DNA from: a virus
Length of the DNA stretch: 41,760 nt
IMG/VR virus record: IMGVR_UViG_3300030329_002226
Span: 1 to 41,760 of that record
Strand: one strand, 5' to 3'
Shown one piece after another: positions 8,501 through 39,650 of the stretch; position 1 is the first letter of the stretch; each line of letters opens with the position of its first letter. The notes below the pieces were generated by a model that was not told the DNA's origin, searched no databases, and saw only the letters and a list, made by a program, of their open reading frames with translations. A program made the position numbers and the translations under genes.

Positions 8501-10407
8501 ATGATAGCATCTGCAACTATACTTTTAACTGGAAGAGATTTTAAAAAATTTTTCGTTTGACCTAAAACACCCATACCTTTAGTAAAACCTCCTATTGTAG
8601 ATTTAAGTTTACCTATTCCTCTTGTTAATGCAACTTGAAAAAACAAATCTCCAAATACTCTAGAAAATTCAAAAGCTAAACCAGCAGAAGAAGTTGATCC
8701 TCCTTGTACACCTTCTTTTTTTGTTCTTTCAATTATATCTCGTTGTTGATCTGAATTTAAAAACCCTGTAGCTTCTATTTTATTTGTAATATCAAATATT
8801 CTATTATCATCTGTAACTAAATATTCTATATTACCATATTCAGGAAATTGTAATATTTTACCTCTTTTATATCCATATCTTATTTGGTCTCCTCTTTCTA
8901 ACCCTTTAATTAAATGATTTGTTCTCCAATTTTCTGCTACATTATCCGTCCATTCTCCAGGTAAAATATCCATAGTAAAAGTACTAAAAGGAACAATTGC
9001 GTCATCCCAAAATCCTATCCAAAAATTTCCACCATTTTTAGTTAAAAAATCTCCTGTAGAAACATTACCCTTAGTTTTTAAAAGATTTTGATATTCTGTT
9101 TCTAGTTTTAATTGATTCTCTTCTAAAGTTTTATATACATAAGGTGTTTCAGTTCTCATCCAATCTTTTACCATATTAGGATTTATATTTCCTTCAGATA
9201 AATAAAATTGTATACCTTCTGTATCCGCATCTTTAGCGGGATTTTTTGTTTCCCATTCTAATTTCTGTTGTTTTAAATCTCTAGTAAATTGTTCATTTAA
9301 ATAAAGATTTAAATAATGAAGTTTTATTATCTCCCATCCTTTTTGTTTTTGAGTGGGATTATATTTTTCTAATCTTTTAATAGTGTTTTGAATATCTTCT
9401 CTATGCCCTCTGTGATTTATAAATCCATTAAAATCTTTTATATTAAAATCTTTATCTCTACTTAAAGCTTTAGTATTAAAAATACTATCAATGAATTCAT
9501 CGTCTATAGCATATTCTTCAAATATATAAGGTTGATTTAACTTTTCTGCATCTATAATTGATTCTATTTGTTTAGGAGTTTTTAAAACAAATCTATTTAC
9601 TTTTCTTCTTCCTTCTCTTTTTACTCTTTCAACATCGGTATTAAATGGCATGTCATTTTGCCACATAATTTTAAACACTTCTCTATTAGTTAGTTCTTTG
9701 CCATTAGGTAGTTTTATGCCAGAAGGACCTTCATCTATATTATTACCCATAGATTCTACCCATCCTGTATAACCTGGATACATTCCTAAAGCTAAATCTT
9801 TTTTAGTTATAAGTTTTGCATCTAATGCTTTTTTAATACTAGGTTGTCTCATAAATCCTCCAACATCTTTTTGAGAATATAATTCAAACTCAGGATCTAA
9901 TCCTAAGCCTTCATATATAGATTCTCCTTCTACTCCTGTTCTTATATAATCTTCTTTTTCAACTTTAGGATTTAATGCAGCATTTATAATAGCTGATCTT
10001 AATTCTGCATTATTAGTTATATCATCAGTAATACCGCTTATTTTAGCAAATTCAGTATCTTGTGGAGATGCTCCAAATATAGCATCTACCATTGTTATAT
10101 CACTTGGAGTTTCTTTATCGTATTGTTTGATTTTACTAGAAGTAAGTTGTTCTAGCATAGTATTTAAATCAAATTGATCATATGGTTGAGGACCAATTCC
10201 TGGATAATAGTCAGGACTTTCTACAGGTTGAATTCCACCTGGCACTCCAAATATACTAGTATCTAAAGTAATTTCTTCTTGATTTGGTTCTACCCTTTCA
10301 GCATCACTATTGTATGTTAACCATAACATTCTTGATACATCTGTAGCGTTAGTAAGATTAACTCTATCTCCTGTAGGTAATTGATAGATAAATAATTCTT
10401 CTTCCAT
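2506..10407 (-). CDS. Giant virion/ejection protein with zincin (HExxH) motif
   Basis: This 2633-residue protein is by far the largest gene here and the last of three ejection-type genes after the tail hub, the slot of T7 gp16 and of crAss-like cargo proteins. HEFKH at residues 1034-1038 fits an HExxH zinc metallopeptidase. A WEEALEIYSEA helix roughly 80-90 residues later could hold the third ligand. A Lys/Glu-rich coiled-coil linker spans about 1200-1275. Short K[F/Y]S motifs recur at Lys1278, 1808, 1851 and 1907. Hydrophobic stretches occur in the N-terminal third (around 590-850) and in the C-terminal part. I saw no DxDGD RNA-polymerase motif. Packaging in the capsid and ejection at infection are inferred from gene position and family analogy. 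Peptidase activity is inferred from the motif alone. Confidence 0.8.
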   Translation of the reverse strand: MEEELFIYQLPTGDRVNLTNATDVSRMLWLTYNSDAERVEPNQEEITLDTSIFGVPGGIQPVESPDYYPGIGPQPYDQFDLNTMLEQLTSSKIKQYDKETPSDITMVDAIFGASPQDTEFAKISGITDDITNNAELRSAIINAALNPKVEKEDYIRTGVEGESIYEGLGLDPEFELYSQKDVGGFMRQPSIKKALDAKLITKKDLALGMYPGYTGWVESMGNNIDEGPSGIKLPNGKELTNREVFKIMWQNDMPFNTDVERVKREGRRKVNRFVLKTPKQIESIIDAEKLNQPYIFEEYAIDDEFIDSIFNTKALSRDKDFNIKDFNGFINHRGHREDIQNTIKRLEKYNPTQKQKGWEIIKLHYLNLYLNEQFTRDLKQQKLEWETKNPAKDADTEGIQFYLSEGNINPNMVKDWMRTETPYVYKTLEENQLKLETEYQNLLKTKGNVSTGDFLTKNGGNFWIGFWDDAIVPFSTFTMDILPGEWTDNVAENWRTNHLIKGLERGDQIRYGYKRGKILQFPEYGNIEYLVTDDNRIFDITNKIEATGFLNSDQQRDIIERTKKEGVQGGSTSSAGLAFEFSRVFGDLFFQVALTRGIGKLKSTIGGFTKGMGVLGQTKNFLKSLPVKSIVADAIIAQSTIGFVRGYEDTLLAAREAGINDQEARELASNASFQTGAWYALTAPISPQTKATNLIFGKPAKETIETALTIYKKKGWQGWNQFWKDQGKKFTTYEGFKGLVRGADLMQREGWKELFQENIQQWGETESIGVATNIRAGQQIVREDYNLEDFIQTSKLSFLAGMAMPGAGMTINSSRNRYRQFMGLDNVDRFNALAYMAFNEKELKSLLAKQVEDGLYTQEEADNLLQEVSLYKNTINDVPKSMDAKNAKNILEDIKELRDLENDKKNSPKGFTGYDNQIQALKDRINNTYYDAITSKDRAAILAAAKAGIAGNTVFEAFENEEQALEYLKGVIPRNRKTKNMDDKKFEEYLKKRFISNKTGAMFQQGDTNFALEFKWQAAKPGRAGKRLTQTAQHEFKHALWVKTIGEDYETQVLLGKALFNEISKMDLALDDDLDTSVLPKDFVNRFRSYYNRFLKAEEKLKIDLKNKVIDKAEYERRRNNLYGNTWEEALEIYSEAIGENLVKFDEDVAQRLKNTWRRAMQFIGATDFEFDSGRAVFNMIRDYNAAIKSGTLKWNRAFKKMGTKGAKVDKKALEKEKQELETTTSEKLAEKEKRKEEKLRKEITVLKEEIDKRRKATAKTKKTKPGSADEPQGFDTKYSLIPDQKYDPKAFGEKIDNYYDADLFTTNTGIDTVAYDIIFDYEAIITNKVESLYSNLPSVLVDEIVFGTQEELLKHIRNFNKTFLKERDKYKESLYKKGLSKSEIEERLKTQDEQGYKITTGEEKGEIIKENKSLYGWINSQLVNKIKQALKRPGITTKKYTKEYDPRTMGTIDEDTAEEQKQEWEQNQSKLVSFLRDPLFGFVNEDGTEVIIDVVPLGGRTISGINDPTLAVNQRLKTAEDPDVINDLERQKRNIERGLELENKSNLTNEEVKELEKLRGFQAYDLGSGRVIKTYEAYTLPMNPVKMIIKAVEEQILRAPNIATLHFRNFKNKFESFIFPLARYMTFKNQGDLDFFMYNNWELIYKVINNPYDPVTGESTYAAKKIPTILREFDEQGRPTKNKKITRALFLQAYFGKNKAEEIINKYNENPESEIKQLRSYPVELSEKADKTMGEIGPTGFFDRRTSLMQLFGDVLILQEARNSLRSERFLNQIAEKNPILYEELKQDNIIAEVIDNMATGKSDSVKFSINNNLSPLFKGRTLDQQIAIANVAQQAFINSDLRSRDQEIKYSIKFDVPNLGNLNDKAIALYLINKMSQGYNNFTFRNAKNSTGKITSKILNEGDVKFSRKEDYNFDEYSNNLSDALNQILAETGNIDPKKQIEKAEVLGKYGLGSDKGQWWRSGGLLSAKDMDILRLMELMATGKGKKGEQQKKWFREKVFDVYMKGNFELKTAKVKTVEAWTQLWKNSPGLKGKLTSPIKGMKTFTYGDAVRVYMWSKGWAKGNKRIPGLSMPQKFRLIAIVNKDKELREFANKASQISKQPNGWIEPYEGWTSRTISSEIKNNLVEAERTKYLAKFIQNVDLIFTDANLNKIQAIYGNAMRVSIEDNLERMKYGQQQISKRNNPEDIGHAFMDYLNNTIGVTMFFNMRSAALQTISFMNFLNTTDNNPLAAGKAILNVPQFMEDFNTLWNSSYLKDRRQGMLNSLQEQEIADLATKFEYSNSMEYMNALLSYLLKIGFGPTRVVDSFAIAFGGTTFYRNRINTYKKDGFTEEEAIKKAEFDWFVLAEDTQQSGDPSKISFNQARNLGRLMLAFQNTPLQYGRIMKSKAMDIAKGRGNLLHNLGVISYYGGLQYAIFAFLQNALMATMWDEEEKELPTEKYNKNWNRFANGWVDSTLKGQGIYGAFISWIKNIILTTIRMGKDDKAIYKEGDFVLSLSEGIVPAAIISRKAVQAYRTYTWNQQEINDILALEKGADKILKNANLIKALLFGFEAATQVPVARLYIKSENLKNAFDSDFEMWQRILFFLGYSTWNLGLNIEDGNGRRGRTGPLDFGPNLDFKGLEFKPKLNF

Positions 10408-14795: not shown

Positions 14796-17700
14796 CTAAG
14801 CTCCAGGCCAGTTACTTGTTTTATACCACCAATCAGTTACAAATGGTGGAGATCCTGTTGCAGGTTGAATTGGTTTAGGATCAATAGGAGCTGCAGGAGT
14901 TGCCGCATTAACATCATAATATATTTCAATACCTGCTCCTCCATCACATGTGTTTAAAGAAGTAAAGGCTATTTTATTATTTATCCATACACAATCTCCA
15001 AAATCATAAGCAGCACCACTAGAATCTGTACCTTTATCTCCTGGAACTACTCCATCAGTAATTTGTTGAGCAGTAGGATTAAAAGGTTGTAATGTACCAA
15101 TTAATTGCCATGCAGTACTAGTACCACTATAACTCATATTGACTGCTCCTCCTAAAGCAGCTGTACCATCACCTTTTGCTGGAGAATTAGAGTTTTGGGT
15201 ATTTTCTCCATTCCAAGTTACTTGAAAACTAGAAAGAGCAGTAACTGTAGTATCACCTGGTCTAAATATATTTCCAATCTTTACATATATGTTTATTGGT
15301 ACACCAGCATTATAATCCCAGTTTGCAATTTCTCCAACCCATGTAGGTAGAACTGGAGTAGAATATTGAGTCTCACATCCCGCATACATGTTTACAGCTG
15401 GAGCGTTCCATTCATTAGCAGTTGCCGCAGGATTATTATTATAAAAGTTAATTTTTACTCCTGTATATCTAGTCGCTTTAGGAGTCCATTGTACTACAAT
15501 AGTTTCACTGTCTCCAGTAGAATTTAAATCAGTTAGTTTCATTACTAATTCTTGAAGAGTAGCTTCATATTGAGAATTATAAGTAGATAAGTTTCTATTT
15601 ACTTTAACACCATAAAAATTAGTATTACTTCCTGTAGTACAAGTTGATTGATTTCTCGCTTCTTGTCCACTTATTAACATATAATAATCAATGTCAGTTG
15701 AAGTAGGTTCTCCAGTAGGATTTTGACCTGTTATATAATCTCCCCATACACCTAAAGTATTTTGATATCTAAATGACTCAATAGACCATTGTATATCTTG
15801 AGTTCTTTGACATGGATTAGCACTTCCATTGTATCCTTTTAATACTCCTGGTCCATTTCCTGGTCCTGGATTTAATCCTCCTGGAGGAGTATATCCTGTA
15901 TAATCTAATATTTCTTTATCAGCTATTTCTGGAGCTGGAGCTAAAGATAAATCACATATAGGTGTATCATTAATTAAAGTATGTGTGATAGTTTGATAAG
16001 AAACACTACCATCGTTTTGAGTAAATTTAATCTTTATCTGATATTTTTCTAAATATTCAAAGTTAATTAAACAAGCTCTTTCTGCTCCTACTTTTAACTG
16101 TAAATAAAAACCTCCTCCTCCAGCGCTTACAATATTAAATAATGATATACTAGGTTGAACTGGTTGATCATTAGAATCATGAATAAGAGTTTCGACGATA
16201 GAAGCTGTACTGTATTCATCATTACCTTGAGGAGTTACAGGCCAAAACGTAGTTGTAATTTGAGCATTACCTGCATCACCTTCATTGAACAACCAACTAA
16301 AAGCAGATATTCCTGTTATTTGAGTTCCAGTAGATGTTATCTCGTAATTTAAATCAGATATTAAACCACTTGTAGAGGTTTCATAAAATAAATCTAGTTG
16401 AGAAACTGTAGGTGCAGTTTCATATACAGATAACCTCATGTATGCTGGATAATCTGGTCTTCCTGCTACAGGAACTGTATTATAAGATGTTTGTATTAAT
16501 CCAATACTTTTTTGAGTATTAACTTTTGCAACAAAAGGTTTTGATTCAACATCATAAATAGCATTGTTATTTATTTCATTATCACTTCCTCCTGGTCCGT
16601 CGCTATAAGTTATATCAGGGAATATATCTTTTATTCCTCCAATAAGCTCTACACCATCTGCGTTTATACTAGGAGAATATTGAGCATTTCCTGGAGTAGT
16701 TGCTTCATTTGTTACTCTTCCCCAACACATTAAATCACTATTAAATTGTTTATCCTGGTTACTTACATCTGTTAATTGTCTAGGAACTTTATTTATATTA
16801 TCATGTGTTAATACTATAAAAGCAGTACTACCTACTTCAGTTGTATTATCACCAATAGGATAACCATCTATAATTCCAGGTAAATATACATTATAAAATT
16901 CTTGTTGTTGTTGTTTTACTACTACTCTATAAGAATAAAACCCCATTTCATTAATAGTATATACATAGTTAGTATAAGCTTGAGATATAACAGGTTCTGG
17001 ATATATAGTACTACTTTGCGTTAAGAACATATAACTATCTGCTATTTCTTCATAAGTATAAATATTAAGAATATTGTTTGTACTAGGATCTGTTTGTCTT
17101 TCTATTTTAACATAATCTTGATATTTTCCTCTTAATTCTTTTCCTACTGCAAATAAATCTTTAGATGTTATTAAATCAGCAGCAGCATCTCCAGTGGTTG
17201 GAATATATGATAATGTATAATAATATTCACCACTCGTAGTATCTGTATTATATTTTAATTCTGCTTTTATTTGTTGATTTAAAGGCAATGCATTGTTTAA
17301 AGTAACTTTTAATTTTCCATTAGTTGGATCTGTTGGTGTAGAAGATGCGGCAGCTGTATATGTCGCTGGAGCAATAACAACCCATCCTGATCCATCATTA
17401 GAATATAAATTAAAAGTATTAGCAGCTGCTTGAGTATCTGAGTAATCTATACTTCCAAAAAAATATTTTAAATCTGCAGTTAAACTACCTGTGAATAAAG
17501 TAATAATTACGCTTGTACTACCTCCAATTACACTTGTAGAAATAGTAAATGTATCTCCTGCTACATAACCTGTTCCTGCTTCTTCTAAAGTTACACTAGT
17601 TACAGCATTACCAGTAAGAGTTATCTCAAAACTTGCTCCTGATCCCGCTGAAGAACTTGTAGTCCAACCCGAAGTAGTACCTGGAGTTCCTGAATAATCT

Positions 17701-19883
17701 CCATTATTTCCATCAGAAGTATTAGTAGTAACATTTGCAACTGCTAAAGTAGTTATTCTTGATCCTGTAGTATCTAAAATTTGAGTTGAATAATTTTTAA
17801 AATAAGAATATGGTGCTCCACCAGGAACAGCTACTGTGTATTGTTCTGGAACAGCATATAATCCTGCGTCATTTCCATTTACATTCACAGCGCTATCGAA
17901 TCTTACAGCTAGTTGCTCACCTTGCCATCCAGACAATGTACTAGCGTTTTCTACTGGTCTATAATTAGAAAAATAATTTGATCCTTCTGTAGGTTCTCCT
18001 CCTGCTACTAATACGTTATCTTTTGAAGAAAGTATAACATCTGTTTGTCTTCCCCATTTATCTGCTAAAATTATTCCTACTTGGTAATTTCTATTTTCTT
18101 TTACAGAGTGTTGAGGATATTCTTCATATTCTTGATTGTTTTTGTCTTTCTTTTCTACAGCATAATCTAGTCCTAAAGGAGCATTATAACCTTGTATAAA
18201 ATTTCCATACATTACTCTATTACCTGCGATTTCTTGAGATAAAGCTCTTACTGGAACTTTATCATAAACTCTAGTGGTTTCATCAGTAGGTAGAGTTTTA
18301 TAAGGAATAGTAGATTGATAAGTATATTGGTAAACATTAGTGTTATTAAGATTAGATATAAATGTAGTATCTACAGGTACACTTTGTAATACTTTGTAAG
18401 CTAAAGAATCAGATTCTTTATATATAATATCTATTTCTTGTATTTTATAATCATTTATAATATCTAAAGAAGGGAGTTCAATGTTTAATATAACATTATT
18501 AATATTATTTTGCATAAACTCTACTATTGTAGATGTCATTGTGTCATCTTCATCTTCATTAACAAACTTTCCTTCTTGTTGAGGAACAAAACATTCTTGT
18601 GTGAATGGAGCAATAAGAGAGTATTCACCGTCGTTATATTTAAATCTATAACTAAATCTTATAAATTTATCTTTCATTAATTCTGGATCACCTTGCCATC
18701 CTTTAAAACTAGCATCTTTTATTACTCTAACTGCTCTTCCTTGAAGATTAGAAGTTGATGCTGGAAGAGTTGGAGCAGCTCCACTATCTAAAATTTGAAA
18801 ATATTTATCTACTCCTTTAATCCAAAATTCTGCGTGTGTATTAATATTTTGAAAATCTGTTACACTACTAGTAGCTACTCTTTCTCCAGAAGGTAAAGCA
18901 TTAAAACCTAAACTATTGTTTGTTATAAGAGATGTAGAAGTCCAATATGCTGTTGATTTAATATCTGCTACTGTTCTTCCTCCAGATGTAGTATAAGTTT
19001 CAAGAGCAGTATAATTAGCTTCAGTAGCTAAAGTATATCCATAAGGAGCTAAATTTCTGGAATCTTCTACTGCCCATTTATTATATAGTTTTCCATATAT
19101 AACTCCATTATCATAATCATTACTATAATAACACCACGCTCCTACTTGTCTAGTATTTGCATCTACCCAATCCGCCCATGTAGTTGCGTGTTCTATTAGA
19201 TCTCCATTTCTATATCTAGTTACATCTAAGTTAACTGTTGCCCAATCCAATGCATCTATTAGTATAGTAGGAATATCAGCTCCATTACTCATTGTGCTTG
19301 GAAGAGTAGAACTAACACTTCTTAAATCTACTAATCTTGGAGCGACATATGGAGAATATTTACAAACAGTTATATCTGATTCATCAGTATAATAAGTTTT
19401 TCCAGAACCACTAGGACTGGCTGTTTGAACATTAATAACTCTTGGTTGATTCCTATTATCTGTCCAAAATAAAAGATTTTCTAATAAATTTACCCCATGT
19501 ATAGGAGCTTGAGTAGAAAAGTTGAGAAAATGACCTTCTACTAAAACATCTGGGGTATTTGTTCCTGAGCTAGGTGACCATCTACATATTTGACAAGAGT
19601 TTGTAGTAGCGATATCTTGACTTAATGTTCCTGAAAAATCTGTTAAAAAATAGTATATAAATCCTCCGGCTTGATCTACATAAGTTCCTATAGTTTCTAA
19701 AGAACCAGTACTTGAAAATACAGCTTCATTACCTAAAACAGCTTCTAAAGCCCCTACGTCTTGATTCTCTGATCTAGAAACTGCAATATTATTAGCGTCT
19801 CTGTATTCATTTTTTGGAATTAGTCTATCATCTAAGTCTTTATTCATTTTAGACTTAATGAAACTATTTTTATTTTCAGCCAT
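14796..19883 (-). CDS. Giant tail hub/nozzle protein with embedded FISUMP-type domain
   Basis: This 1695-residue beta-rich protein lies downstream of two ring proteins, the position of podoviral tail nozzle or crAss-like muzzle proteins. The N-terminus (SKMNKDLDDRLIPKNEYRDA, GVNLLENLLFWTDNRNQPR) and the region around residues 545-620 (EIAGNRVMYGNFIQGY, KENRNYQVGIILADKWGRQ) match the pattern I associate with those proteins. Between them, at about 213-392, is a FISUMP-like segment: NLDVTRYRNGD, WCYYSNDYDNGVIYGKLYNK, LAPYGYTLATEANYTAL, then AVRVIKD. It lies just before the conserved FRFSYRFKYNDGEYSLIAPF-like block (residues about 395-425), as an insertion would. It likely forms the tail tip and may touch the receptor through that domain. 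The C-terminal 1000 residues are Thr/Ser/Asn-rich beta repeats. Confidence 0.75.
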   Translation of the reverse strand: MAENKNSFIKSKMNKDLDDRLIPKNEYRDANNIAVSRSENQDVGALEAVLGNEAVFSSTGSLETIGTYVDQAGGFIYYFLTDFSGTLSQDIATTNSCQICRWSPSSGTNTPDVLVEGHFLNFSTQAPIHGVNLLENLLFWTDNRNQPRVINVQTASPSGSGKTYYTDESDITVCKYSPYVAPRLVDLRSVSSTLPSTMSNGADIPTILIDALDWATVNLDVTRYRNGDLIEHATTWADWVDANTRQVGAWCYYSNDYDNGVIYGKLYNKWAVEDSRNLAPYGYTLATEANYTALETYTTSGGRTVADIKSTAYWTSTSLITNNSLGFNALPSGERVATSSVTDFQNINTHAEFWIKGVDKYFQILDSGAAPTLPASTSNLQGRAVRVIKDASFKGWQGDPELMKDKFIRFSYRFKYNDGEYSLIAPFTQECFVPQQEGKFVNEDEDDTMTSTIVEFMQNNINNVILNIELPSLDIINDYKIQEIDIIYKESDSLAYKVLQSVPVDTTFISNLNNTNVYQYTYQSTIPYKTLPTDETTRVYDKVPVRALSQEIAGNRVMYGNFIQGYNAPLGLDYAVEKKDKNNQEYEEYPQHSVKENRNYQVGIILADKWGRQTDVILSSKDNVLVAGGEPTEGSNYFSNYRPVENASTLSGWQGEQLAVRFDSAVNVNGNDAGLYAVPEQYTVAVPGGAPYSYFKNYSTQILDTTGSRITTLAVANVTTNTSDGNNGDYSGTPGTTSGWTTSSSAGSGASFEITLTGNAVTSVTLEEAGTGYVAGDTFTISTSVIGGSTSVIITLFTGSLTADLKYFFGSIDYSDTQAAANTFNLYSNDGSGWVVIAPATYTAAASSTPTDPTNGKLKVTLNNALPLNQQIKAELKYNTDTTSGEYYYTLSYIPTTGDAAADLITSKDLFAVGKELRGKYQDYVKIERQTDPSTNNILNIYTYEEIADSYMFLTQSSTIYPEPVISQAYTNYVYTINEMGFYSYRVVVKQQQQEFYNVYLPGIIDGYPIGDNTTEVGSTAFIVLTHDNINKVPRQLTDVSNQDKQFNSDLMCWGRVTNEATTPGNAQYSPSINADGVELIGGIKDIFPDITYSDGPGGSDNEINNNAIYDVESKPFVAKVNTQKSIGLIQTSYNTVPVAGRPDYPAYMRLSVYETAPTVSQLDLFYETSTSGLISDLNYEITSTGTQITGISAFSWLFNEGDAGNAQITTTFWPVTPQGNDEYSTASIVETLIHDSNDQPVQPSISLFNIVSAGGGGFYLQLKVGAERACLINFEYLEKYQIKIKFTQNDGSVSYQTITHTLINDTPICDLSLAPAPEIADKEILDYTGYTPPGGLNPGPGNGPGVLKGYNGSANPCQRTQDIQWSIESFRYQNTLGVWGDYITGQNPTGEPTSTDIDYYMLISGQEARNQSTCTTGSNTNFYGVKVNRNLSTYNSQYEATLQELVMKLTDLNSTGDSETIVVQWTPKATRYTGVKINFYNNNPAATANEWNAPAVNMYAGCETQYSTPVLPTWVGEIANWDYNAGVPINIYVKIGNIFRPGDTTVTALSSFQVTWNGENTQNSNSPAKGDGTAALGGAVNMSYSGTSTAWQLIGTLQPFNPTAQQITDGVVPGDKGTDSSGAAYDFGDCVWINNKIAFTSLNTCDGGAGIEIYYDVNAATPAAPIDPKPIQPATGSPPFVTDWWYKTSNWPGA

Positions 19884-22987: not shown

Positions 22988-24430
22988 CTATACTCCTTTG
23001 AATAATACAAAGTTGTTAGCTGCTTGAGTTACTAGACATCTTTCTGATAAGAAGTTAACTTCCATAGCATCAAGAGTAGAAGTATAAGCACCGCCAACAG
23101 AACCTGTTAACCATGACTTCATTCTTCTATCATCAGCTTGAGAAGCTCTATATCTTACATGTAAGAAAGGTCTTCTAATGTTAGTACCTAGAATTTGATC
23201 GTAAACAGTAGAAGTTCCAGCAGGTATTAAAACACCTTCAATAGAACTAGTACCAGTCATACCTCCTCTAGTTGACGCATCATTTAGATATTTCCAGTCA
23301 GTTTTATAGAAGTCATAAGAACCTCTTCTAAAACCAGAGAAACCTAAATTAAGAGCCATTTCTTCTGAATTCTCAAATAAACCGAATGCAGTACCACCAA
23401 CAGATCCTCCTGATATAGCTGAAAGCATATCATCGAAATCTAAGGCAGTTTGTCTTTGTAAGAAAAGCATGTTTTCTTCAATAGCACCCTGTGTATCTAA
23501 GTTTTTAAGAATAGCATCAAACGTATCAATACCAGCAGCAGCAGTAAACCCAACATTTACATTACCTCTATCAGCGATAGCAGCAAATAAACCTTGAGTA
23601 CCTTTAGAAAGAGTTTTTAGAGCAGCAGGTCCGTTTTCACTTAATTCACCTTCTACCATTGCCATTTCTAAATAATCTTCAAATCTTAATCTAGTTTCAG
23701 ATTCTGCTTTAAGATACCATAAATATCCGCTTGTTCCGTCTTCAGTAGCAACTTCCACCCAACCAATCTGAGCAGTGTCAGAACCAGAAACAACATATTT
23801 GCTTCTAATTATAATTGGAGAGTTAGAGTACTGTTGAAAAGCTGGATCAACACTTATATACTGATCACCTGTTACAGCACCTGCAGTATCAGAAGCGTTT
23901 GATACAGATTGACCTTTTTGAACGTCAGAACCATAAACAAACATCTTACCTGTTGCTGCTAAGCTTTGTAAGTCAGCTGCTGTATAAGGATATACCGCAA
24001 GTACACCAGTAGCAGTATTACTAGATAATACGTAACATTTCATTTCTACACCAAGACTGTCCATAAGAACAATAGTGCTTTTAGGAGATACTACATTTTT
24101 TACTGTAGCAGTTACAGCAATTGTAACAGTATTTACACCTACACCGTTTCCGATAGTAACATTGTCATAAGCAATATGTAATCTATTTTGCTCAGACCAA
24201 ATTACTTGATCAGATGTCATTGGCATTTCCGCACCTACCATTCTCAAGAATCCTGATAACGTTCTGTTTCCATAACGCTCAACTTCTTGTTCGTAGATTT
24301 CAGGAAGATATTGCTGCGCAAAGTCAGCAAAATTATCGCCAGCTGAATCTGTCCACTGTAAGTAATTACTGTTAAGTAGCTCCTGTTTTTGTGATGGGAC
24401 AATAGCCCCAAATTGTGGAGTTAAACTCAT
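22988..24430 (-). CDS. Major capsid protein
   Basis: A 480-residue protein placed right after the scaffold-like gene and before the ring genes, as expected of an HK97-fold capsid protein. The N-terminal arm (SQKQELLNSNYLQWTDSAGD, FADFAQQYLPEIYEQEVERY) is helical. A Val/Thr-rich beta region follows (residues about 90-230). The C-terminal half has the pattern I associate with crAss-like capsid proteins (FDDMLSAISGG, LGFSGFRRGSYDFYKTDWKY, then RRPFLHVRYRAS). It has slightly higher GC and smoother codon choice than its neighbours, as is common for highly expressed capsid genes. The gene is followed by a strong hairpin. The call rests on position and pattern. Confidence 0.82.
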   Translation of the reverse strand: MSLTPQFGAIVPSQKQELLNSNYLQWTDSAGDNFADFAQQYLPEIYEQEVERYGNRTLSGFLRMVGAEMPMTSDQVIWSEQNRLHIAYDNVTIGNGVGVNTVTIAVTATVKNVVSPKSTIVLMDSLGVEMKCYVLSSNTATGVLAVYPYTAADLQSLAATGKMFVYGSDVQKGQSVSNASDTAGAVTGDQYISVDPAFQQYSNSPIIIRSKYVVSGSDTAQIGWVEVATEDGTSGYLWYLKAESETRLRFEDYLEMAMVEGELSENGPAALKTLSKGTQGLFAAIADRGNVNVGFTAAAGIDTFDAILKNLDTQGAIEENMLFLQRQTALDFDDMLSAISGGSVGGTAFGLFENSEEMALNLGFSGFRRGSYDFYKTDWKYLNDASTRGGMTGTSSIEGVLIPAGTSTVYDQILGTNIRRPFLHVRYRASQADDRRMKSWLTGSVGGAYTSTLDAMEVNFLSERCLVTQAANNFVLFKGV

Positions 24431-28095: not shown

Positions 28096-30309
28096 TTAAT
28101 CTATTATTTTTGAAATATATCCTTTGTTATTATATTTTCTAAAACCTAATGGTTTTGGATCTAATTGTCTTTTAAATATAGGTTTATAAAGATTTTTATT
28201 ACAACCCATTATAGCTAAACCTGAGCTAATAGAAGCATCATGTTTTGTTCTATTATTTATATCAAATCTAGCCCAATCTTCTAATGTTTTTTGAAGATAC
28301 ATATCTCCATATTTAGTTCCCAAGTTACCAACGTAGGTTTCAATATAAGATTCTATCGCAGCTGCATGAGCTTGTTTTACATCTTCACTAGAGTTTGGTA
28401 TACCTCCAATCTCTCTTTCAGTAACTGATAATTTATTATAAAGTTTATCAGGTCTATTCATACTAAACCCTCTATATCCTCTTCTTTTAAAATGATATAA
28501 AAGTCTAGGTTTATTATTTTCTACTAATATTGGCATTCCATAAAATACACATGCCATTAATACATCTTCAAAGAATATTTCTGCTGTTTGAGGTCTAGCT
28601 ATGTATTCTAAAAAGAAATGATTAGGTGGAATATCTTCCATGCTAAATTTCGTAAGTCCGTGTAACGAACCATTTGATCCTCTAATATCCACTGTACCTG
28701 AGATATCATATGGGTCACAACCAAAACATCCACAGTGTTCGTTACCAGGATACCTTATTCCATCTTTCATTATTACATTATTTTGTAAATTATATGGAGG
28801 TGTCCATGATATTTTAAATCTTCCTGAAGGATTTGGTACAAATAATACTTTTGTATCCTTAACTCCGTGTTCCCATTGAAAAGAACCTTTAGTTACTAAC
28901 GCGTGATTTTGAGAATCTTCGTTATAATCTATTTGTTCATATATTTTAACTAGATTAAATAGTGAAGCTTTTGATTCATCTCTAAAAGCGTGTTGCGTTG
29001 TTCGTGGAAATTGTCTATAAAATTCATTTAAACCATTTTGATCTTGTTTAAGACCATCTACTTCATTTTGCCAATATTCAATAACACCTAATTCAATTTC
29101 TTCGTTTCTCGGACCTTTGACAGGTTTCGACGGTGTTTCGAAGACAGGTATTCCATAAGAATCAATGTATCCTTCGTAATTCCATTCCATAGGAATGAAC
29201 AAAGAATAGAGTCCTGAGCGAGTCTGTCCGTTGGCGTTTCTTTTTGTGACATCTGAATCATCGTATAGTTTTTTAAAGTTATCTCCACCTTTATCTAAAG
29301 CATTAGAAGTAGAACCCATCATACACTTACCTATAATTCTACTACCTAACCTTAATGTGGTTTTTGTTACTCTCCAATTATTTAGAATATTGTTTGGTTT
29401 TTCCCATTTGCCACTTTCATCATGTACTAATAGTTTTAATTTTTCACCATCATAACTATTATCTCCTGTATTTTTCCAGTCAATAGTTGTATCTAATCCT
29501 TGTAAATCTTCACTTTCTGTTCCTAACTCTATCTTTCTTCTAGTAAATTTAGAAGCTGGGACTCTATATGCTAATTCTGTTTTAGGTCGATCCATACCAT
29601 CTTGGATGGGCTTAAAAAAGAATGGATAATTAACTGATATTGGTACAACTTTATCAGTAAACATTTTTTTAGCATCTGGTCCAGTTTTAGATAATATTCC
29701 ATATCGGGAATCACTAGATATTGTTGCTAAATTAACAACCTCTCCTGATGCCATAAAAGAAAATCCAGAACGTCTATTCTTAAGATAACACATTCCATAA
29801 CATCTTTTATCAGCTTTACATGCTTCCCAAAACACAAAGAATAATCTATTAGCTTCTCTAAAATCTGGAGCTCCTACATCAATTTTACTCCATTGTAAAT
29901 ACATATAATGTGTACCAGTTAAATAAGTAGGAATATCTTTATTATAATACCAAAATCCTTCTTCCCGTCTTTTAAATTCTTGATCAATATATTCAAACCA
30001 TTTTTCTTTAAAATCTTGTGGATATTGTTTCCAATCAAAAACTGTTTTAATTCTACTTAATTCCTTAGGATATTCAGCTTTTTCAAATTTGTTAGTTTTA
30101 AATCTATGTGGTTTATTAGATTGTTTAGGAAGTGCTATTTTTAAATTTTGAATTTCATATATATCACCAATTTGACCTGTTTTAGATATAACAATAACAT
30201 CATGTTCTTTATTGTATCCATATTCCCATTTTTTATTTTTATTATTTCTTTTTATTATATGGGGCTTTATATGGTCTGTTAATATCTTATATAAAGTTTG
30301 TACGTACAT
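28096..30309 (-). CDS. terL: Terminase large subunit (DNA-packaging ATPase/nuclease)
   Basis: This 737-residue protein packages DNA into the procapsid. The ATPase half shows a Walker-A-like KNRRSGFSF (residues 177-185), a Walker B LLVHDE (293-298) and a coupling motif MGSTSN (331-336). The nuclease half has an acidic strand end at CDPYD (Asp532) and LVEN (Glu597). A later Asp (HDASISSG, about residue 700) could complete the RNase-H-type metal site. Residues 1-110 are an N-terminal extension longer than in T7 or P22 relatives. Its ATG overlaps the stop of the 93-residue gene (TAATG), and the portal follows directly. Large size and deviant Walker A match crAss-like terminases as I know them. 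Confidence 0.88.
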   Translation of the reverse strand: MYVQTLYKILTDHIKPHIIKRNNKNKKWEYGYNKEHDVIVISKTGQIGDIYEIQNLKIALPKQSNKPHRFKTNKFEKAEYPKELSRIKTVFDWKQYPQDFKEKWFEYIDQEFKRREEGFWYYNKDIPTYLTGTHYMYLQWSKIDVGAPDFREANRLFFVFWEACKADKRCYGMCYLKNRRSGFSFMASGEVVNLATISSDSRYGILSKTGPDAKKMFTDKVVPISVNYPFFFKPIQDGMDRPKTELAYRVPASKFTRRKIELGTESEDLQGLDTTIDWKNTGDNSYDGEKLKLLVHDESGKWEKPNNILNNWRVTKTTLRLGSRIIGKCMMGSTSNALDKGGDNFKKLYDDSDVTKRNANGQTRSGLYSLFIPMEWNYEGYIDSYGIPVFETPSKPVKGPRNEEIELGVIEYWQNEVDGLKQDQNGLNEFYRQFPRTTQHAFRDESKASLFNLVKIYEQIDYNEDSQNHALVTKGSFQWEHGVKDTKVLFVPNPSGRFKISWTPPYNLQNNVIMKDGIRYPGNEHCGCFGCDPYDISGTVDIRGSNGSLHGLTKFSMEDIPPNHFFLEYIARPQTAEIFFEDVLMACVFYGMPILVENNKPRLLYHFKRRGYRGFSMNRPDKLYNKLSVTEREIGGIPNSSEDVKQAHAAAIESYIETYVGNLGTKYGDMYLQKTLEDWARFDINNRTKHDASISSGLAIMGCNKNLYKPIFKRQLDPKPLGFRKYNNKGYISKIID

Positions 30310-30590
30310 TATTTAGACCTTCCTTCTGCAAAACCTTTAAAAGGTTTTTCTTTTTTAACTTCATCTTTTTTAGGTTTGTCTTCTAACATATTTTTTTCTT
30401 CTTCAATTCTATTTAAAATCTCAAAAGCATCAAAAATAGCTAATTTTTTAGTAGCAGCTGCATTCTTTAGTCTATCTGCTGAGATATCATCATCTGAATC
30501 AACAATAGGTTCTTTAGCTACTTTAATTAGCTCATCTACTGCTACTTGCCCAGCTTGGATTATATTCTTCTTGGTTTCCTTTATTTTCAT
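30309..30590 (-). CDS. Small helical protein abutting terL, possible small-terminase candidate
   Basis: This 93-residue soluble protein is helical and charged: KNIIQAGQVAVDELIKVAKE, DISADRLKNAAATKKLAIFD, AFEILNRIEEEKNMLE, ending in a Lys-rich tail (KPKKDEVKKEKPFKGFAEGR). Its stop overlaps the terL start (TAATG), and its first 59 bases overlap the upstream GroES-like gene. The position fits a small terminase, but it is short and has no clear helix-turn-helix, so this is a weak guess. The same kind of small protein before terL is a feature I associate with uncultured marine phages. Confidence 0.6.
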   Translation of the reverse strand: MKIKETKKNIIQAGQVAVDELIKVAKEPIVDSDDDISADRLKNAAATKKLAIFDAFEILNRIEEEKNMLEDKPKKDEVKKEKPFKGFAEGRSK

Positions 30591-31140
30591 ATTTAATTAC
30601 AATATCATTTGATTTCATACAATATAAACGTTCATTATCTATAATAAATTCCCATTCACCGTAAGGAGTGTAACCTACGAGATCTCCAGGATATATTTCT
30701 TTATCATCTAATGAACTATTTCCATATTTTAATATCCCTATTAAACTAACTTCTTTATCGTTGTTTAGAGATTCTTTATTTTCAATAGGTTTTATAAAAC
30801 ATCTATCATTAAAAGAATTCCATGTATCATTTCTTTTATATAAATATACTTGATCGGGTTGACAAAAATATAAATTATCTTTAAACCATGATCTACTTTT
30901 TTTCTGAACACCTTTAGTGTTATAAAAAGTTCTAAACACGTTTTGATGAATAATTAATATATCATCTACTTGTATTCCTGTATAATATGCCAAAGGAATT
31001 GCTTTTACTTTAGCATATCTATTTACAAATTTAAAATTTTCTATACTTGAATTTAAAATTAGTTCTTGGTTCTCTACTTGAATCTTATTACTATATGTTT
31101 CACCTAGGGGTTCTACGATAAAATCATATAAACTTCTCAT
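30532..31140 (-). CDS. Extended GroES-like co-chaperonin-type protein
   Basis: A 202-residue protein. The first 70 residues (MRSLYDFIVEPLGETYSNK, a loop with ENQELILN, then RYAKVKAIPL and IQVDDILIIHQNVFR) follow the strand order of GroES. Residues about 150-186 (YPGDLVGYTPYGEWEF, IIDNERLYCMKSNDIVI) match the GroES C-terminal pattern GD-V-(F/Y)...E..ID.E.L..M...DI. A 75-residue Tyr/Trp/Lys-rich insert separates the two. This suggests an enlarged or duplicated GroES-like fold, roughly twice the size of the 87-residue groES product elsewhere in this window. It may cap the phage or host chaperonin, or act as a virion-assembly protein of the same fold. This is pattern inference. Confidence 0.6.
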   Translation of the reverse strand: MRSLYDFIVEPLGETYSNKIQVENQELILNSSIENFKFVNRYAKVKAIPLAYYTGIQVDDILIIHQNVFRTFYNTKGVQKKSRSWFKDNLYFCQPDQVYLYKRNDTWNSFNDRCFIKPIENKESLNNDKEVSLIGILKYGNSSLDDKEIYPGDLVGYTPYGEWEFIIDNERLYCMKSNDIVIKYENKGNQEEYNPSWASSSR

Positions 31141-33436: not shown

Positions 33437-33466
33437 TAGATTTGATTTAATTAATTAATAATGATA

Positions 33467-34234: not shown

Positions 34235-34246
34235 TTCTTTTGTTTT

Positions 34247-34275: not shown

Positions 34276-34304
34276 ATTTGTGATTAATAATTTGTGTTAT
34301 GATG

Positions 34305-34610: not shown

Positions 34611-34623
34611 AATTTTTGTTTTT

Positions 34624-34656: not shown

Positions 34657-34679
34657 AGTTTTATACAGCTCTCATACTG

Positions 34680-34829: not shown

Positions 34830-34832
34830 AAC

Positions 34833-35045: not shown

Positions 35046-35056
35046 AATTTTAATTT

Positions 35057-35665: not shown

Positions 35666-36291
35666 TATAACCAGTTTTTAGGATTAATTTTATCCCAGAA
35701 ATTTCCTGTTGCTCTAGCGCTTTGATTGTCTTGGAAGTTTTGTTGTTTTCTCTTTAATCTAGCTGCTTTAGCATCTTTACCTCTAGCTTCGGCATCATCT
35801 ATTCTAGCTTGTAAAGATTGATCATCTCTTTTCCAAAAACCAAATTTATTTCTATTTGGATCATCAAATTTTGCTTGTGGTCCTTCTGTTATATCTTCTA
35901 AAAAACTATAATTGAAAGCACTACTATTATTATTAGCATTAGAATCAGTTGTACCTTGTGGATTAGTATAACTACCAGAACCAAAAGTTTGTACGTCTGC
36001 TTCAGGTAAAGCAACTGTAGTTGAACCAGTTCCCATACCGTGTGATCCTTGAGGCATGTTACCATGGTATCTACCACTTCTAGGATCTAATTGAGTTTTG
36101 AGTTGATTGATAGCTTCCATCGCATTATAACCAGCATTAGCGGCTATTACACCCACTTGTTTTAATGGATGAGGCATTTCTCTTTCATGCTCTGCACCAT
36201 ATATTTTATTGGCAGCATTTACTGTTTTTTCTGAAAAAGGATGAGTTACATTTCCTGCTTTAGATTTAAGATTTGGTTTTGTGTTAGGCAT
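35665..36291 (-). CDS. Unknown polar protein, low-complexity middle
   Basis: This 208-residue hydrophilic protein begins MPNTKPNLKSKAGNVTHPF, has a short helical stretch (AGYNAMEAINQLKTQLDP), a Gly/Ser/Asn-rich central part (about 75-125) and a charged helical C-terminal segment (SLQARIDDAEARGKDAKAAR), ending NFWDKINPKNWL. The next gene, the Gln/Asn-rich protein, overlaps it by one base. It follows the winged-helix gene. No catalytic motif was seen. Likely a virion or assembly protein by context. Confidence 0.6.
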   Translation of the reverse strand: MPNTKPNLKSKAGNVTHPFSEKTVNAANKIYGAEHEREMPHPLKQVGVIAANAGYNAMEAINQLKTQLDPRSGRYHGNMPQGSHGMGTGSTTVALPEADVQTFGSGSYTNPQGTTDSNANNNSSAFNYSFLEDITEGPQAKFDDPNRNKFGFWKRDDQSLQARIDDAEARGKDAKAARLKRKQQNFQDNQSARATGNFWDKINPKNWL

Positions 36292-36293
36292 AA

Positions 36294-36740
36294 TTATCTA
36301 TTTTTATCTCTATTTACGTTATATATAGAGGTCTGTAATACTTTGTCAATATATGATTTACCTTTCATAATTGAGTTTCGTCTTTCACTAGTAGGAATAT
36401 CTTCTTCTCCTAGCATAATTCTATATATTTTATTTATAAGTTGTTTTCCTTTAAAAGAAATCTTATAAATATTATATTTTTGAGTAGTTCTATTGCGGTT
36501 TCTCCAAACTACTATCCAATTATTTTTTATTAATCTGTTCCATCTTCTATTGTCCCAACTATAAGAATATACTCCCATTTCAAAATCTTTCTTAGTAAAA
36601 AGATCAATACAATCTAAATAAATTAATAATTCAAGATCTGCGTTATTTAAGCCGTTGTTCTTACAAGCCCATTTGCGTATTATACGGTAATGTTTTAACA
36701 GGTTCATATCTTTGATATCTCCCGCTTCTAGCCTTTTCAT
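36294..36740 (-). CDS. MarR-like winged-helix DNA-binding protein
   Basis: A 148-residue protein. The helices LNNADLELLIYLDC (31-44), LFTKKDFEMG (47-56) and SWDNRRWNRLIKNNWIVVWR (61-80), the wing strand TTQKYNIYKISFKG (85-98) and a final helix (KQLINKIYRIMLG) follow a winged helix-turn-helix. The gene overlaps groES by four bases (ATGA). In uncultured marine phages the same type is annotated as MarR-like. It could regulate late genes or bind DNA during packaging, but no operator was seen here. Confidence 0.68.
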   Translation of the reverse strand: MKRLEAGDIKDMNLLKHYRIIRKWACKNNGLNNADLELLIYLDCIDLFTKKDFEMGVYSYSWDNRRWNRLIKNNWIVVWRNRNRTTQKYNIYKISFKGKQLINKIYRIMLGEEDIPTSERRNSIMKGKSYIDKVLQTSIYNVNRDKNR

Positions 36741-37000
36741 ACAACAACGACTACATCTTGAGATTTTATAACATGATATGTTTTATCTTCTACTTCTATT
36801 TTATGACCAGCATGTCTATCGAAATAAATAGTGTCATTAGACTTTAAACCATTTACTTCATCACCTACTGATAAAATAGTAGCTTCAGTATATCTTATAT
36901 CTTCTTTTTGTTTTTCTCCTAATAATAAACCACCTTGTGTTTTAGTAGTTCCTTCTTTAGTTTTTTCTATTATCAAATTTCTACCTATTGCTTTCATCAA
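36737..37000 (-). CDS. groES: Co-chaperonin GroES
   Basis: An 87-residue protein (E. coli GroES 97). It starts with a basic strand (MKAIGRNLIIEKTKEG), has a mobile-loop region with GGLLLGEK at about 23-30, where GroES has GGIVLTG, then TEATILSVGDEVNGLKSNDT, IYFDRHAGHKIEVEDK and the C-terminal strand YHVIKSQDVVVVV. It caps the GroEL ring so substrates can fold. Its start lies inside the groEL coding end (20-base overlap), so it is made from the same mRNA. The order groEL-groES is the reverse of bacterial operons. It matches phage-type GroES such as gp31-like caps only in principle. The family call is firm. Confidence 0.88.
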   Translation of the reverse strand: MMKAIGRNLIIEKTKEGTTKTQGGLLLGEKQKEDIRYTEATILSVGDEVNGLKSNDTIYFDRHAGHKIEVEDKTYHVIKSQDVVVVV

Positions 37001-38534
37001 CTCTAATATTATTAATTACACAATCTGTAGATAAAATGGTTTTAGCAACTGAAGCCGCATTTTTTAGTGCACTTTTAGTTACTAATAAAGGATCAATAAT
37101 ACCATTTTTAACCATATCTACTTGTTTTCCGCTTGTAACATCTATTCCTATCCCTTCTTTTTTAGGTAAAATAGGATCAATACCCGCGTTTTCTAGTATT
37201 GTTTTATATGGTGAGATTAATGCTTTTGCTAGAATTTTTTCTCCTTCATTTTCTTCTTTTAAATTCATTGCAGCATTTAATAAAGCTATTCCACCTCCTG
37301 GTACTATACCTTCTTTTATTGCAGCTTTAGTTGCACAAATAGCATCTTCAGCTCTATCTAATTTTTCTTTTAATTCTACTTCAGAATTAGCACCGATTTT
37401 TACTACAGCAATTTTAGCACATAATCTTGCTAATCTTTTTTCTAAAGATATTATTTTATCCGGAATTTTACATGTTATTAATTCTTTCTTAATATCTTCT
37501 ATAATAGCTATAGTTTCTGTTTTTGTGTCTCCTATTTGAATAATAGTTTCAGTATTATTAGTTATACTTTTTAAACAGCTTCCTAAATAATCTACACTTA
37601 AAAGATCCATATCATCTCCTAAGTTTTCATTTATTATAGTAGCTCCTGTTAATAAAGATATATCATCAAATATTTCTTTTCTATTAACTCCTAATACTGG
37701 AGCTTCTATTACATTTATTTTAATATTACCTTTTGTTTTGTTCATAGCTAAAGCTGCTAAAACATCTTGACTTAAATCTCCTATTATTAATAAAGGTTTT
37801 CTTTTTTTAATAACATGTTCTAAAATACTTTGTATTTGTCTTATACTATTTATTTCAGAATCTAATAATAAAACTAAAGGATTTTCTAGTTCTGCTGTTT
37901 TCTTTTCTTTATTAGTAATAAAATGAGGACTAGTTAATCCTTTTGGATATTGAGCTCCATCAATTATTTCTACTAATGTTTCACCAGATAAAGACATTTC
38001 CATCATTACTACTCCAGTAGTATCTACTGATCTAAAAGCATTAGCTATTAAACTACCTAATTTAGAATCATTATTAGTAGATATAGTAGCTACATTATCT
38101 AGCATTTTATCTTTTACAGGAATAGATATTTTATTTAAATATTTTATAACTTTATCTACTGCACTGTCAATTCCTTCTTTTATATCTCTTATATTTTGCT
38201 TATCAATAACCTTATAAGCTTCAGTTAAAATAGAATGAGATAAAACTGTAGCGGTGGTTGTTCCATCACCTGCTTCTTCTACAGTTTTTTTAGCAGCGTG
38301 TTTTAATAAAGTACAACCCATATTTTCTACTGGATGTCTTAATATTATATTTTCTGCTACAGTAACACCATCTTTGGTTATAGTTGGATTACCACTAGAA
38401 TCTTCTAAAATCACACATTTACCGCTAGCTCCTAATGTAGAGCTAACGGCTTTAGTGAGTTTTTCAATTCCTTCAAATACTTTATCTCTAGCTTCGTTTC
38501 CAAAGTTAAGATTTTTTACTATCATATTTGACAT
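36981..38534 (-). CDS. groEL: Chaperonin GroEL (group I), complete
   Basis: A 517-residue protein against about 548 in E. coli. It folds proteins inside a double ring using ATP. Conserved ATP-site motifs are present: TKDGVTVAENI (53-63, Asp55), GDGTTTATVL (89-98, Asp90) and AEDAICATKAA around Asp397, which matches the catalytic Asp398, then EGIVPGGGIALLNA at about 405-418. The apical domain keeps KPLLIIGDLSQDVLAAL and the substrate/GroES-facing segments. The C-terminal Gly-Gly-Met tail is absent (it ends NNIRVDESNR). The start has the AAATTATG context. It was probably acquired from a host and has long diverged. It sits in the late block rather than with replication genes, which fits help for virion proteins. 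Confidence 0.92.
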   Translation of the reverse strand: MSNMIVKNLNFGNEARDKVFEGIEKLTKAVSSTLGASGKCVILEDSSGNPTITKDGVTVAENIILRHPVENMGCTLLKHAAKKTVEEAGDGTTTATVLSHSILTEAYKVIDKQNIRDIKEGIDSAVDKVIKYLNKISIPVKDKMLDNVATISTNNDSKLGSLIANAFRSVDTTGVVMMEMSLSGETLVEIIDGAQYPKGLTSPHFITNKEKKTAELENPLVLLLDSEINSIRQIQSILEHVIKKRKPLLIIGDLSQDVLAALAMNKTKGNIKINVIEAPVLGVNRKEIFDDISLLTGATIINENLGDDMDLLSVDYLGSCLKSITNNTETIIQIGDTKTETIAIIEDIKKELITCKIPDKIISLEKRLARLCAKIAVVKIGANSEVELKEKLDRAEDAICATKAAIKEGIVPGGGIALLNAAMNLKEENEGEKILAKALISPYKTILENAGIDPILPKKEGIGIDVTSGKQVDMVKNGIIDPLLVTKSALKNAASVAKTILSTDCVINNIRVDESNR

Positions 38535-38559
38535 AATTTAATTGAATTTGATTTAATTG

Positions 38560-38850
38560 TTATTTAAAGGTTTTAACGACTTTTGGACCTTTTAAGAAAT
38601 CTACTTTCTTCGCATAATGTGCTACTGATCCATCAATAGCTGCTTCTGCTCCTTCAATAGTTTCTCTTCGGGTTACGTCGTGCCAAGTATCTTCCTTTTC
38701 TAGGTCTTGGTACTCGGTTTGATAGAAACCGTTTGGTAATTGAACTATTCTCCAATTTTTTTTATTTGAAAGATGAGTCCATAGGTTTACAGTTTCTTGG
38801 TTAATTTGTGGTTGACTATTCCACGTTCTAGTCGAATAATAAAACGTCAT
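38560..38850 (-). CDS. Small unknown protein, conserved in marine phages
   Basis: This 96-residue protein has the stretches WRIVQLPNGFYQTEYQD, EKEDTWHDVTRRETIEGAEA and AIDGSVAHYAKKVDFLKGP. I recognise this type as a frequent small gene in marine phages, near tail or structural genes, without assigned function. It is compact, mixed alpha/beta, with no leader or TM segment. The GroEL start follows after 25 bases. The upstream 86-base gap holds one copy of the repeated 16-mer and a small GC hairpin (CCCG-GCT-CGGG, 38890-38900). Confidence 0.68.
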   Translation of the reverse strand: MTFYYSTRTWNSQPQINQETVNLWTHLSNKKNWRIVQLPNGFYQTEYQDLEKEDTWHDVTRRETIEGAEAAIDGSVAHYAKKVDFLKGPKVVKTFK

Positions 38851-38907
38851 TGGTTTTGGTTTTAAATTAATATTTGGTTTGTTGCTCTTCCCGAGCCGGG
38901 TATGTGT

Positions 38908-38923
38908 TTATAATCACTTGTTT
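38908..38923 (-). promoter_or_regulatory. Repeated leader motif, copy 2
   Basis: An exact copy of the plus-strand 16-mer TTATAATCACTTGTTT found at 14767. It lies 57 bases before the 38850 start and 13 bases after the stop of the adhesion-type gene, followed by the short GC hairpin at 38890-38900. A promoter, processing or transcription-pausing signal is possible. Confidence 0.4.
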
Positions 38924-38936
38924 TTTTTTATTTTTA

Positions 38937-39641: not shown

Positions 39642-39650
39642 ACTGTTTTT

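Follow-up and report, generated by a model that had tools for sequence, protein, structure and literature searches.

A reversed-order groEL–groES gene set with a leader pseudoknot and a second, Cpn20-like modeled co-chaperonin in a lineage of putative Flavobacteriaceae phages

We analyzed a 41,760-nucleotide (nt) stretch of viral DNA (positions 1 to 41,760 of the 67,276-base IMG/VR virus record IMGVR_UViG_3300030329_002226; hereafter the window) that encodes both a GroEL and a GroES protein. Together with a small upstream gene and a winged-helix gene, they form an apparent four-gene operon, kept in the relatives of the window and new here. The gene set probably amounts to a phage-owned group I chaperonin system that would fold phage proteins and is fixed among close relatives of the window in a Flavobacteriaceae phage lineage. 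The operon comprises the following features (lengths in amino acids, aa):

38874..38900, minus strand: leader H-type pseudoknot (CCC/GGG and GCTC/GAGC), ~24–50 nt 5' of the start codon of the 96-aa gene
38560..38850, minus strand: 96-aa gene, first in the apparent operon, without a match to a PHROG, Pfam or NCBIfam family
36981..38534, minus strand: groEL, 517 aa, 55.7 kDa, group I chaperonin without a GGM tail
36737..36997, minus strand: groES, 86 aa from ATG, mobile loop with GGLLL, roof hairpin missing
36294..36740, minus strand: winged-helix (MarR-like) gene, 148 aa, basic, isoelectric point 9.9

Relatives were collected by IMG/VR searches with GroEL, GroES and the winged-helix protein (best 80 loci each of 141, 117 and 128 confirmed), and the 238 loci were collapsed into 151 viral contig clusters by common exact 150-mers. 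The order of the three genes was read by TBLASTN; complete open frames for all three were present in 115 of 147 clusters. In 147 of the 151 clusters, groEL, groES and the winged-helix gene (hereafter the module) lie on one strand in the same order, with the winged-helix gene directly after groES in every one of them, while in the remaining four the set is cut by the end of the available stretch. This shared arrangement rules out an assembly junction at groEL/groES, which an earlier note on this DNA had raised for positions near 36981–37000; window positions 28000–39700 contain no N.

The groEL and groES genes do overlap, as the earlier note had it, although the 20 bases given there count a TTG at 37000. 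The codon aligned to GroES residue 1 is ATG in all 147 clusters, and the most likely start is the ATG at 36997, which makes the overlap 17 bases. Across the clusters the overlap is 17 bases in 121, 20 in 23 and 4 in 2, and the one odd cluster (L110) has a groEL broken into two pieces. The 4-base overlap between groES and the winged-helix gene (ATGA) is present in the window as described. In the relatives, the winged-helix starts were set by alignment (residue-1 codon ATG in 80/147, GTG in 10/147), and the overlaps, accordingly approximate, are 4 bases in 92 clusters, 7 in 48, 1 in 6 and 6 in 1. As a separate observation, an additional, broken groEL and an additional groES lie close to one end of a 69-kb relative (G010; positions 1819–3529 and 63399–65115), which may represent a duplicate, decay or an assembly error.

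A further sample of 80 loci was chosen by terminase rather than chaperonin, some of its contigs being common to the first set. Fifteen of these loci had at least 9.5 kb of upstream sequence, and groEL was found in all 15 records: 13 hold all three genes within the stretch, and in the other two groEL lies farther off in the record. In 77 of the 80 contigs that extend far enough, the 96-aa gene precedes groEL on the same strand, and its product may be functionally part of the chaperonin system. The surroundings vary among relatives (tail-fiber-like gene in 11/52, the next gene in 4/72, the first gene after the module in 18/139). Since the 96-aa gene is kept while neighboring genes vary, the chaperonin genes are a fixed cassette within a variable late region. 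The set, with its overlapping DNA-binding-like gene, indeed sits among late structural genes, as had been noted from the sequence. That entry of the earlier note makes no reference to the 96-aa gene, the leader pseudoknot or the second co-chaperonin gene at 31140..30532.

The statement that bacterial operons run groES–groEL is borne out by 74 of the best 80 bacterial GroEL loci kept for comparison (one, L431, with overlapping genes, was sorted by eye); one locus has the reverse order (Blastopirellula, L442), and in five no groES was found in the fetched stretch. The groEL–groES order of the window is confirmed against bacteria, but it is not unique: Elemovirus, the Manatee Spring podovirus and Maribacter phage Panino share it, whereas phi38:1 and Immutovirus have groES before groEL, as bacteria do. 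A phage GroEL with GroES in reversed order is therefore a known kind, as Elemovirus already has groEL before groES. The earlier note's view that a full-length phage GroEL together with GroES is uncommon was also overstated: in a reference set of 50,697 phage records, 287 match GroEL, 247 of them over at least 80% of its length, some of the 287 being plainly bacterial contigs. The presence of GroEL in this phage group is itself not new, because Nishimura and others reported in 2017 that, in their group 2 (phi38:1 among its members), 36 of the 78 environmental genomes encode a Cellulophaga-phage-related GroEL (PMC5332604).

The window GroEL matches PHROG 5725 (E 6.6e-137) and Pfam Cpn60 PF00118 (204.7 bits; residues 26–509, model 1–488 of 490), a full-length domain. 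The NCBIfam GroEL subfamilies PRK12849 and PRK00013 are above cut-off and three others below. Because the cut-off of the GroEL equivalog TIGR02348 is missed (453.7 vs. 582.1 bits), the protein is, as judged by profiles, a divergent group I chaperonin rather than an ordinary GroEL equivalog. The ATP-site motifs TKDG, GDGTTT, [ED]DA and GxxDP occur in 114 of 114 full-length sets, with the Asp residues at D55, D90, D397 and D481 in the window; both the retention of these residues and the loss of the GGM tail, pointed out earlier for the window, extend to all 114. With the ATP-site residues taken at what we presume to be their E. coli GroEL numbers, aligned residues are kept in 11 of 11 module members except at P33 (A), N479 (N or D) and A480 (V). 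The C terminus of the phage protein reads DESNR or similar, and its codons run across the groES start. Positions aligned to what we take to be the inter-ring residues of E. coli GroEL differ, and E. coli 427–433 and 466–471 are without a counterpart.

The window GroES scores 53 bits against Pfam Cpn10 PF00166 (cut-off 21.1). The mobile loop, [GS]G followed by three hydrophobic residues, is present in 114/114 sets, and the roof hairpin is absent, seen as a 9-column gap against E. coli GroES in 11 module members (alignment A2). By alignment, it is a GroES with a mobile loop and without a roof hairpin, like T4 gp31, a finding that is new here. T4 gp31 is likewise reported to be a phage lid without roof loops, needed for the large capsid protein gp23, which its cage takes (PMC6318259), and plant Cpn10s without a roof hairpin have been reported (PMC4242682). 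Unlike T4, which uses the host GroEL, the window phage encodes its own GroEL and two lid-like proteins. As a TBLASTN query, GroES alone gave no match in the 50,697 phage records at E 0.01, while profiles do find GroES in some.

The second lid-like protein is encoded one small gene before the terminase:

30532..31140, minus strand: second co-chaperonin, 202 aa, PHROG 13932 (named co-chaperonin GroES; E 8.3e-22), tandem Cpn10 (Cpn20-like) by model
30309..30590, minus strand: 93-aa gene between the tandem co-chaperonin and the terminase, without a Pfam or PHROG match
28096..30309, minus strand: terminase large subunit (terL), PHROG 6681 (E 1.3e-160), the lineage marker

In all 80 loci retrieved with the tandem protein, its match stops 220–232 bases short of the terL match, and the tandem gene adjoins terL in all 66 terminase loci with at least 1 kb upstream. 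The C half is recognized as Cpn10 by hhalign (96.1% against A2; 97.6% against 76 GroES). The N half was not found as Cpn10 by sequence: hhalign gave 7–32%, Pfam on wholes and halves and a PDB profile search gave nothing, and a hidden Markov model (HMM) of the 76 GroES gave E 0.08 to 3.8. The PDB profile search with the whole tandem family missed the C half too, and the HMM of 76 GroES missed the C halves of Panino, Manatee and Elemovirus (E 0.1 to 1.4). One of five AlphaFold models was confident (mean predicted local distance difference test score, pLDDT, 76.7; the others 59.6 to 45.2), and it shows two Cpn10-like barrels arranged head-to-tail. Its best PDB match is Cpn20 (7EKQ chain R; Foldseek E 2.9e-5, Z 10.1 over 157 residues, root-mean-square deviation (rmsd) 4.4). 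The N half of the model alone reaches Z 7.3 to Cpn10 1wnr and Z 6.2 to gp31, a range where a common arrangement can suffice. Independent support comes from the BFVD model of phi18:3 cpn10, which matches over the full length (E 3.3e-13). The second co-chaperonin is thus modeled as a pair of Cpn10 barrels joined head-to-tail, with chloroplast Cpn20 as the best match and the N half assigned only by the model.

The resemblance to the chloroplast extends to the pairing of head-to-tail Cpn10 folds (in the phage, by model) with a single-domain Cpn10; unlike the phage protein, whose N half is not recognized by sequence, Cpn20 belongs to a plastid and not to a virus. According to a review, the tandem form is specific to chloroplasts, and Cpn10 and Cpn20 make up rings with seven domains (PMC5780408); mixed Cpn10/Cpn20 oligomers have been reported elsewhere too (PMC4242682). 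That tandem Cpn10 proteins exist in phages is shown by the sequence of ORF64 of Flavobacterium phage MaF61 (L484, 912–1475), a 187-aa protein encoded directly before the chaperonin gene ORF65. Both of its domains are found by profile in a three-sequence search (E 6.6e-8 and 1.4e-8), and its top PDB match is Cpn20 (E 1.6e-8). Unlike the window virus, MaF61 is a 168-kb phage with a very divergent GroEL (26.8%), and profile comparison of ORF64 with the window tandem protein gave no real match (7.3%, 48 columns). Among the papers listed in searches of the open PMC literature, judged by titles and abstract starts, none reports a tandem Cpn10 in phages, subscription papers being outside this scope. 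GenBank labels such genes "co-chaperonin GroES" or "chaperonin cpn10", and the latter is listed as a Pervagoviridae core protein (PMC8776804); the available text of a paper on Baltic Sea Flavobacterium phages (PMC7077304) contains no mention of chaperonins or "elemo". The new feature here is a total of three Cpn10-type domains spread over two proteins, of which the tandem protein is Cpn20-like by model.

Several cultured or sequenced phages share parts of this set. Elemovirus (Flavobacterium phage vB_FspP_elemoB_14-3B, NC_062741) has, besides groEL followed by groES, a second "co-chaperonin GroES" gene directly before a terminase 44.9% identical to that of the window, but its GroEL is 37.7% identical, the overlap is 1 base, and no winged-helix relative was found by TBLASTN. 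The Manatee Spring podovirus (MW202828) carries an adjoining winged-helix relative, a tandem relative near the terminase and the best terminase match (63.9%); it differs in having the winged-helix gene on the opposite strand and a GroEL of 36% identity. Cellulophaga phage phi38:1 (Callevirus, Pervagoviridae) likewise has a GroEL, a small Cpn10, a tandem co-chaperonin before terL and a winged-helix relative, but its groES–orf–groEL arrangement lies among replication genes and the winged-helix gene is far off. Podovirus morphology is reported for Calle, a phage of the same genus as phi38:1 (PMC8776804), and methylated GroEL peptides have been reported from phi38:1-infected cells and virion samples (PMC13288928).

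To place the phage GroEL, a careful tree of 50 proteins was built from 11 module members, Elemovirus, Manatee, phi38:1, Panino, 33 bacteria, Immutovirus and SJC03; it leaves out MaF61, Dulem 41, phi14:2, VibK471, Va1, LR756501 and the Manatee myovirus. The 11 module GroELs form one clade (100/99), and together with Elemovirus, Manatee, phi38:1 and Panino they split (98/96) from the 33 bacteria, Immutovirus and SJC03. Holding the module together with 11 Flavobacteriaceae GroELs was rejected (approximately unbiased test, p-AU 0.00017). In a quick tree of 77 rows, for which 52 of 78 usable bacterial rows were kept (every third dropped), no group of the module with the four isolate relatives was recovered, and long branches came together. 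Only the module clade is firm; Elemovirus, Panino, phi38:1 and Manatee are long branches whose deeper order is unsure. Terminase matches were found in 87 of the 50,697 phage records (68 Flavobacterium, 15 Cellulophaga, 2 Tenacibaculum, 1 Maribacter, 1 unassigned), and from these we infer that the host of the window virus is probably a member of Flavobacteriaceae. This group of viruses is related to seawater phages of Flavobacteria-type bacteria.

The leader 5' of the 96-aa gene reads ATACCCGGCTCGGGAAGAGCAACAAACCAA, and a TTAAAACCAAAACCA stretch ahead of the start codon is also conserved within the leader region (38901–38851, minus strand). The leaders compared were selected with a seed fixing CC and GG, which kept 49 of 95 (31 were without the seed and 15 were duplicates) and leaves only the outer pair of P1 and P2 as informative positions. 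Since the MAFFT alignment misplaces the second helix, base pairing was scored in a fixed frame, with one of the 50 aligned leaders falling outside it. The outer P1 pair is C-G in 23, A-T in 22 and unpaired in 4 of the 49. P2 is Watson–Crick in 45 of 49 (GCTC/GAGC 27, GCAC/GTGC 10, GCCA/TGGC 4, ACTC/GAGT 3, GTCC/GGAC 1), whereas 2000 reshuffles average 17.8 and reach at most 27; the counts for both helices refer to sequences rather than to independent changes. The hairpin with its flanks occurs in 59 of 94 distinct leaders, against 0.05 expected in shuffles, and is missing in the other 35, some of which belong to a different, T-rich class.

The element is also tied to its position. All 29 matches of the exact pattern of one class in the viral collection lie less than 200 nt before a 96-aa gene, with groEL within 1 kb for 28 and the remaining one out of room. 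A looser pattern occurs in 4 of 17 whole records, with a single copy in each (38900..38874 in the window), and its backward reading has no occurrence. A strict pseudoknot scan found it before the operon in 44 of 147 clusters; away from that position it turned up once on the operon's strand and twice on the other. Rfam gave no leader match, with three sub-threshold matches elsewhere in window positions 36000–41700, and RNAfold recovers the GCTC/GAGC hairpin only (z -1.26). The leader is a covarying H-type pseudoknot, operon-specific as far as searched, without an Rfam match and new. At a guess, it could serve translation control or protection of the operon mRNA.

Of the five models of the winged-helix protein, the best reached pLDDT 81.0 (the other four 66.5 to 48.4) and showed a weak MarR-family resemblance (TcaR, Foldseek E 0.038; best Z 7.5, rmsd 4.2 over 102 residues); Pfam and NCBIfam gave no match. 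The "regulator" overlapping groES in the earlier note thus holds as a DNA-binding-like gene, while its identity as a regulator hangs on this weak fold match. Because its relatives in phi38:1 and Panino lie away from groEL, the protein appears more likely to be a phage regulator that came into the operon than a chaperonin partner.

We propose that co-transcription would give one mRNA, headed by the small pseudoknot, from which the 96-aa protein, a GroEL ring, a roofless GroES lid and the basic winged-helix protein would be made, with the start/stop codon overlaps coupling translation of groEL, groES and the winged-helix gene. The phage GroEL would hydrolyze ATP and, capped by a phage lid, enclose phage proteins for folding. 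Its likeliest client would be the capsid candidate of 52 kDa, because this is near the size limit of the ordinary cage, like T4 gp23:

22988..24430, minus strand: candidate major capsid protein, 480 aa, 52.1 kDa, PHROG 13704 virion structural protein

The capsid role is suggested by the place of this gene two genes after the portal gene. The tandem co-chaperonin beside the terminase may add lid domains, alone or mixed with GroES.

Several observations weigh against such an encapsulating system. Residues aligned to those that we take to be needed in E. coli for GroES and substrate binding are changed in the apical domain of the module members (Y199 is L in 10/11, L234 is Q in 11/11, Y203 is H, N or S, and V264 is changed too), and hinge G375 is K in 11/11. 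These changes fit a lid-binding surface tuned to the phage's own GroES, or could instead reflect altered mechanics. With the window query, BLAST found a tandem relative in 102 of the 120 contigs that had sufficient sequence, not in all. In phages phi18:3 and phi19:3, the tandem gene and a small GroES occur with no phage GroEL match, and Gundel_1, with a related terminase, has no match to GroEL, Cpn10 or PHROG 13932; therefore, the system is not needed in every phage of the terminase family. The chaperonin of phage EL is described as not interacting with E. coli GroES, and the mechanism proposed for it does not involve encapsulation (PMC7185714). By analogy with EL, an open-ring phage GroEL could act as a holdase that stops aggregation, its apical and hinge changes agreeing with this, while the GroES-like proteins act elsewhere, for example as lids for the host GroEL, as they may in phi18:3 and phi19:3. 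We regard this as quite unlikely, since the overlap of groES with groEL in 146 of 147 clusters and the kept mobile-loop triplet (114/114) are hard to explain unless GroEL and GroES bind. Still less credible, and highly improbable in our view, is that a host groESL was lately acquired, shuffled and kept as a stress or metabolic gene, which the earlier note had named as recent cargo inside one host genus. The best bacterial match is indeed a Bacteroidota GroEL (Zobellia, 43% identity), but no bacterial GroEL exceeds 43% among the best 80 loci kept, the module clade stands apart from bacteria with the Flavobacteriaceae grouping rejected, and order, overlaps and leader are common to the relatives; for GroEL, the tree and the identities rule recent host cargo out.

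Within a phage-owned, lid-capped chaperonin, the composition of the lid may be weighed separately. It is conceivable, if doubtful, that GroES and the tandem protein form a ring of seven Cpn10 domains, e.g., three tandem and one single. Single and tandem kinds occur in one genome, and chloroplasts are reported to have both (PMC4242682, PMC5780408), the tandem model is best matched by Cpn20, and phi18:3 and phi19:3 keep the small and tandem pair without GroEL; on the other side, the N half lacks sequence support as a Cpn10, the groES and tandem genes are 5.6 kb apart, and the stoichiometry is a guess. The constant spacing before terL would instead be explained if the tandem protein were a head-assembly or packaging factor built on the GroES fold and not a lid. 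By eye, the second domain has a short loop without a hydrophobic triplet, in agreement with this, but in the N-domain loop L27 and N30 are invariant around a hydrophobic pair, resembling the mobile-loop triplet, and the gene is missing in Gundel_1 despite its related terminase; we consider such a factor unlikely. A fuller picture, which we hold to be rather doubtful, is a chloroplast-like mixed set in which the roofless GroES and the tandem Cpn10 would form a seven-domain, open-topped lid on the phage's own divergent GroEL, giving a cage that suits the capsid protein. The lid pair would have come first, acting on host GroEL, as it may do today in phi18:3, and the GroEL operon with its pseudoknot leader would have been added later.

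Phage GroEL has previously appeared in genome reports; here it is part of a fixed set in a widespread lineage. Because this set has cultured relatives (Cellulophaga, Flavobacterium and Maribacter phages), the question of why some viruses encode a whole chaperonin, and T4 only the lid, becomes directly testable. If the tandem model is true, the Cpn20 answer to the seven-fold symmetry problem would have arisen more than once, since a double-domain co-chaperonin would then exist outside plastids. The leader pseudoknot, in turn, is a compact, RNA-like element that the searches made here link to a single operon.

Elsewhere in the window, two very large proteins are encoded at 10407..2506 (2633 aa, without a PHROG or Pfam match) and 19883..14796 (1695 aa). 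Outside it, a sigma-factor-like gene lies on the plus strand at L002 15625–16386 (57225–57986 of the record; PHROG 351, E 8.2e-14) and is a candidate driver of late genes.

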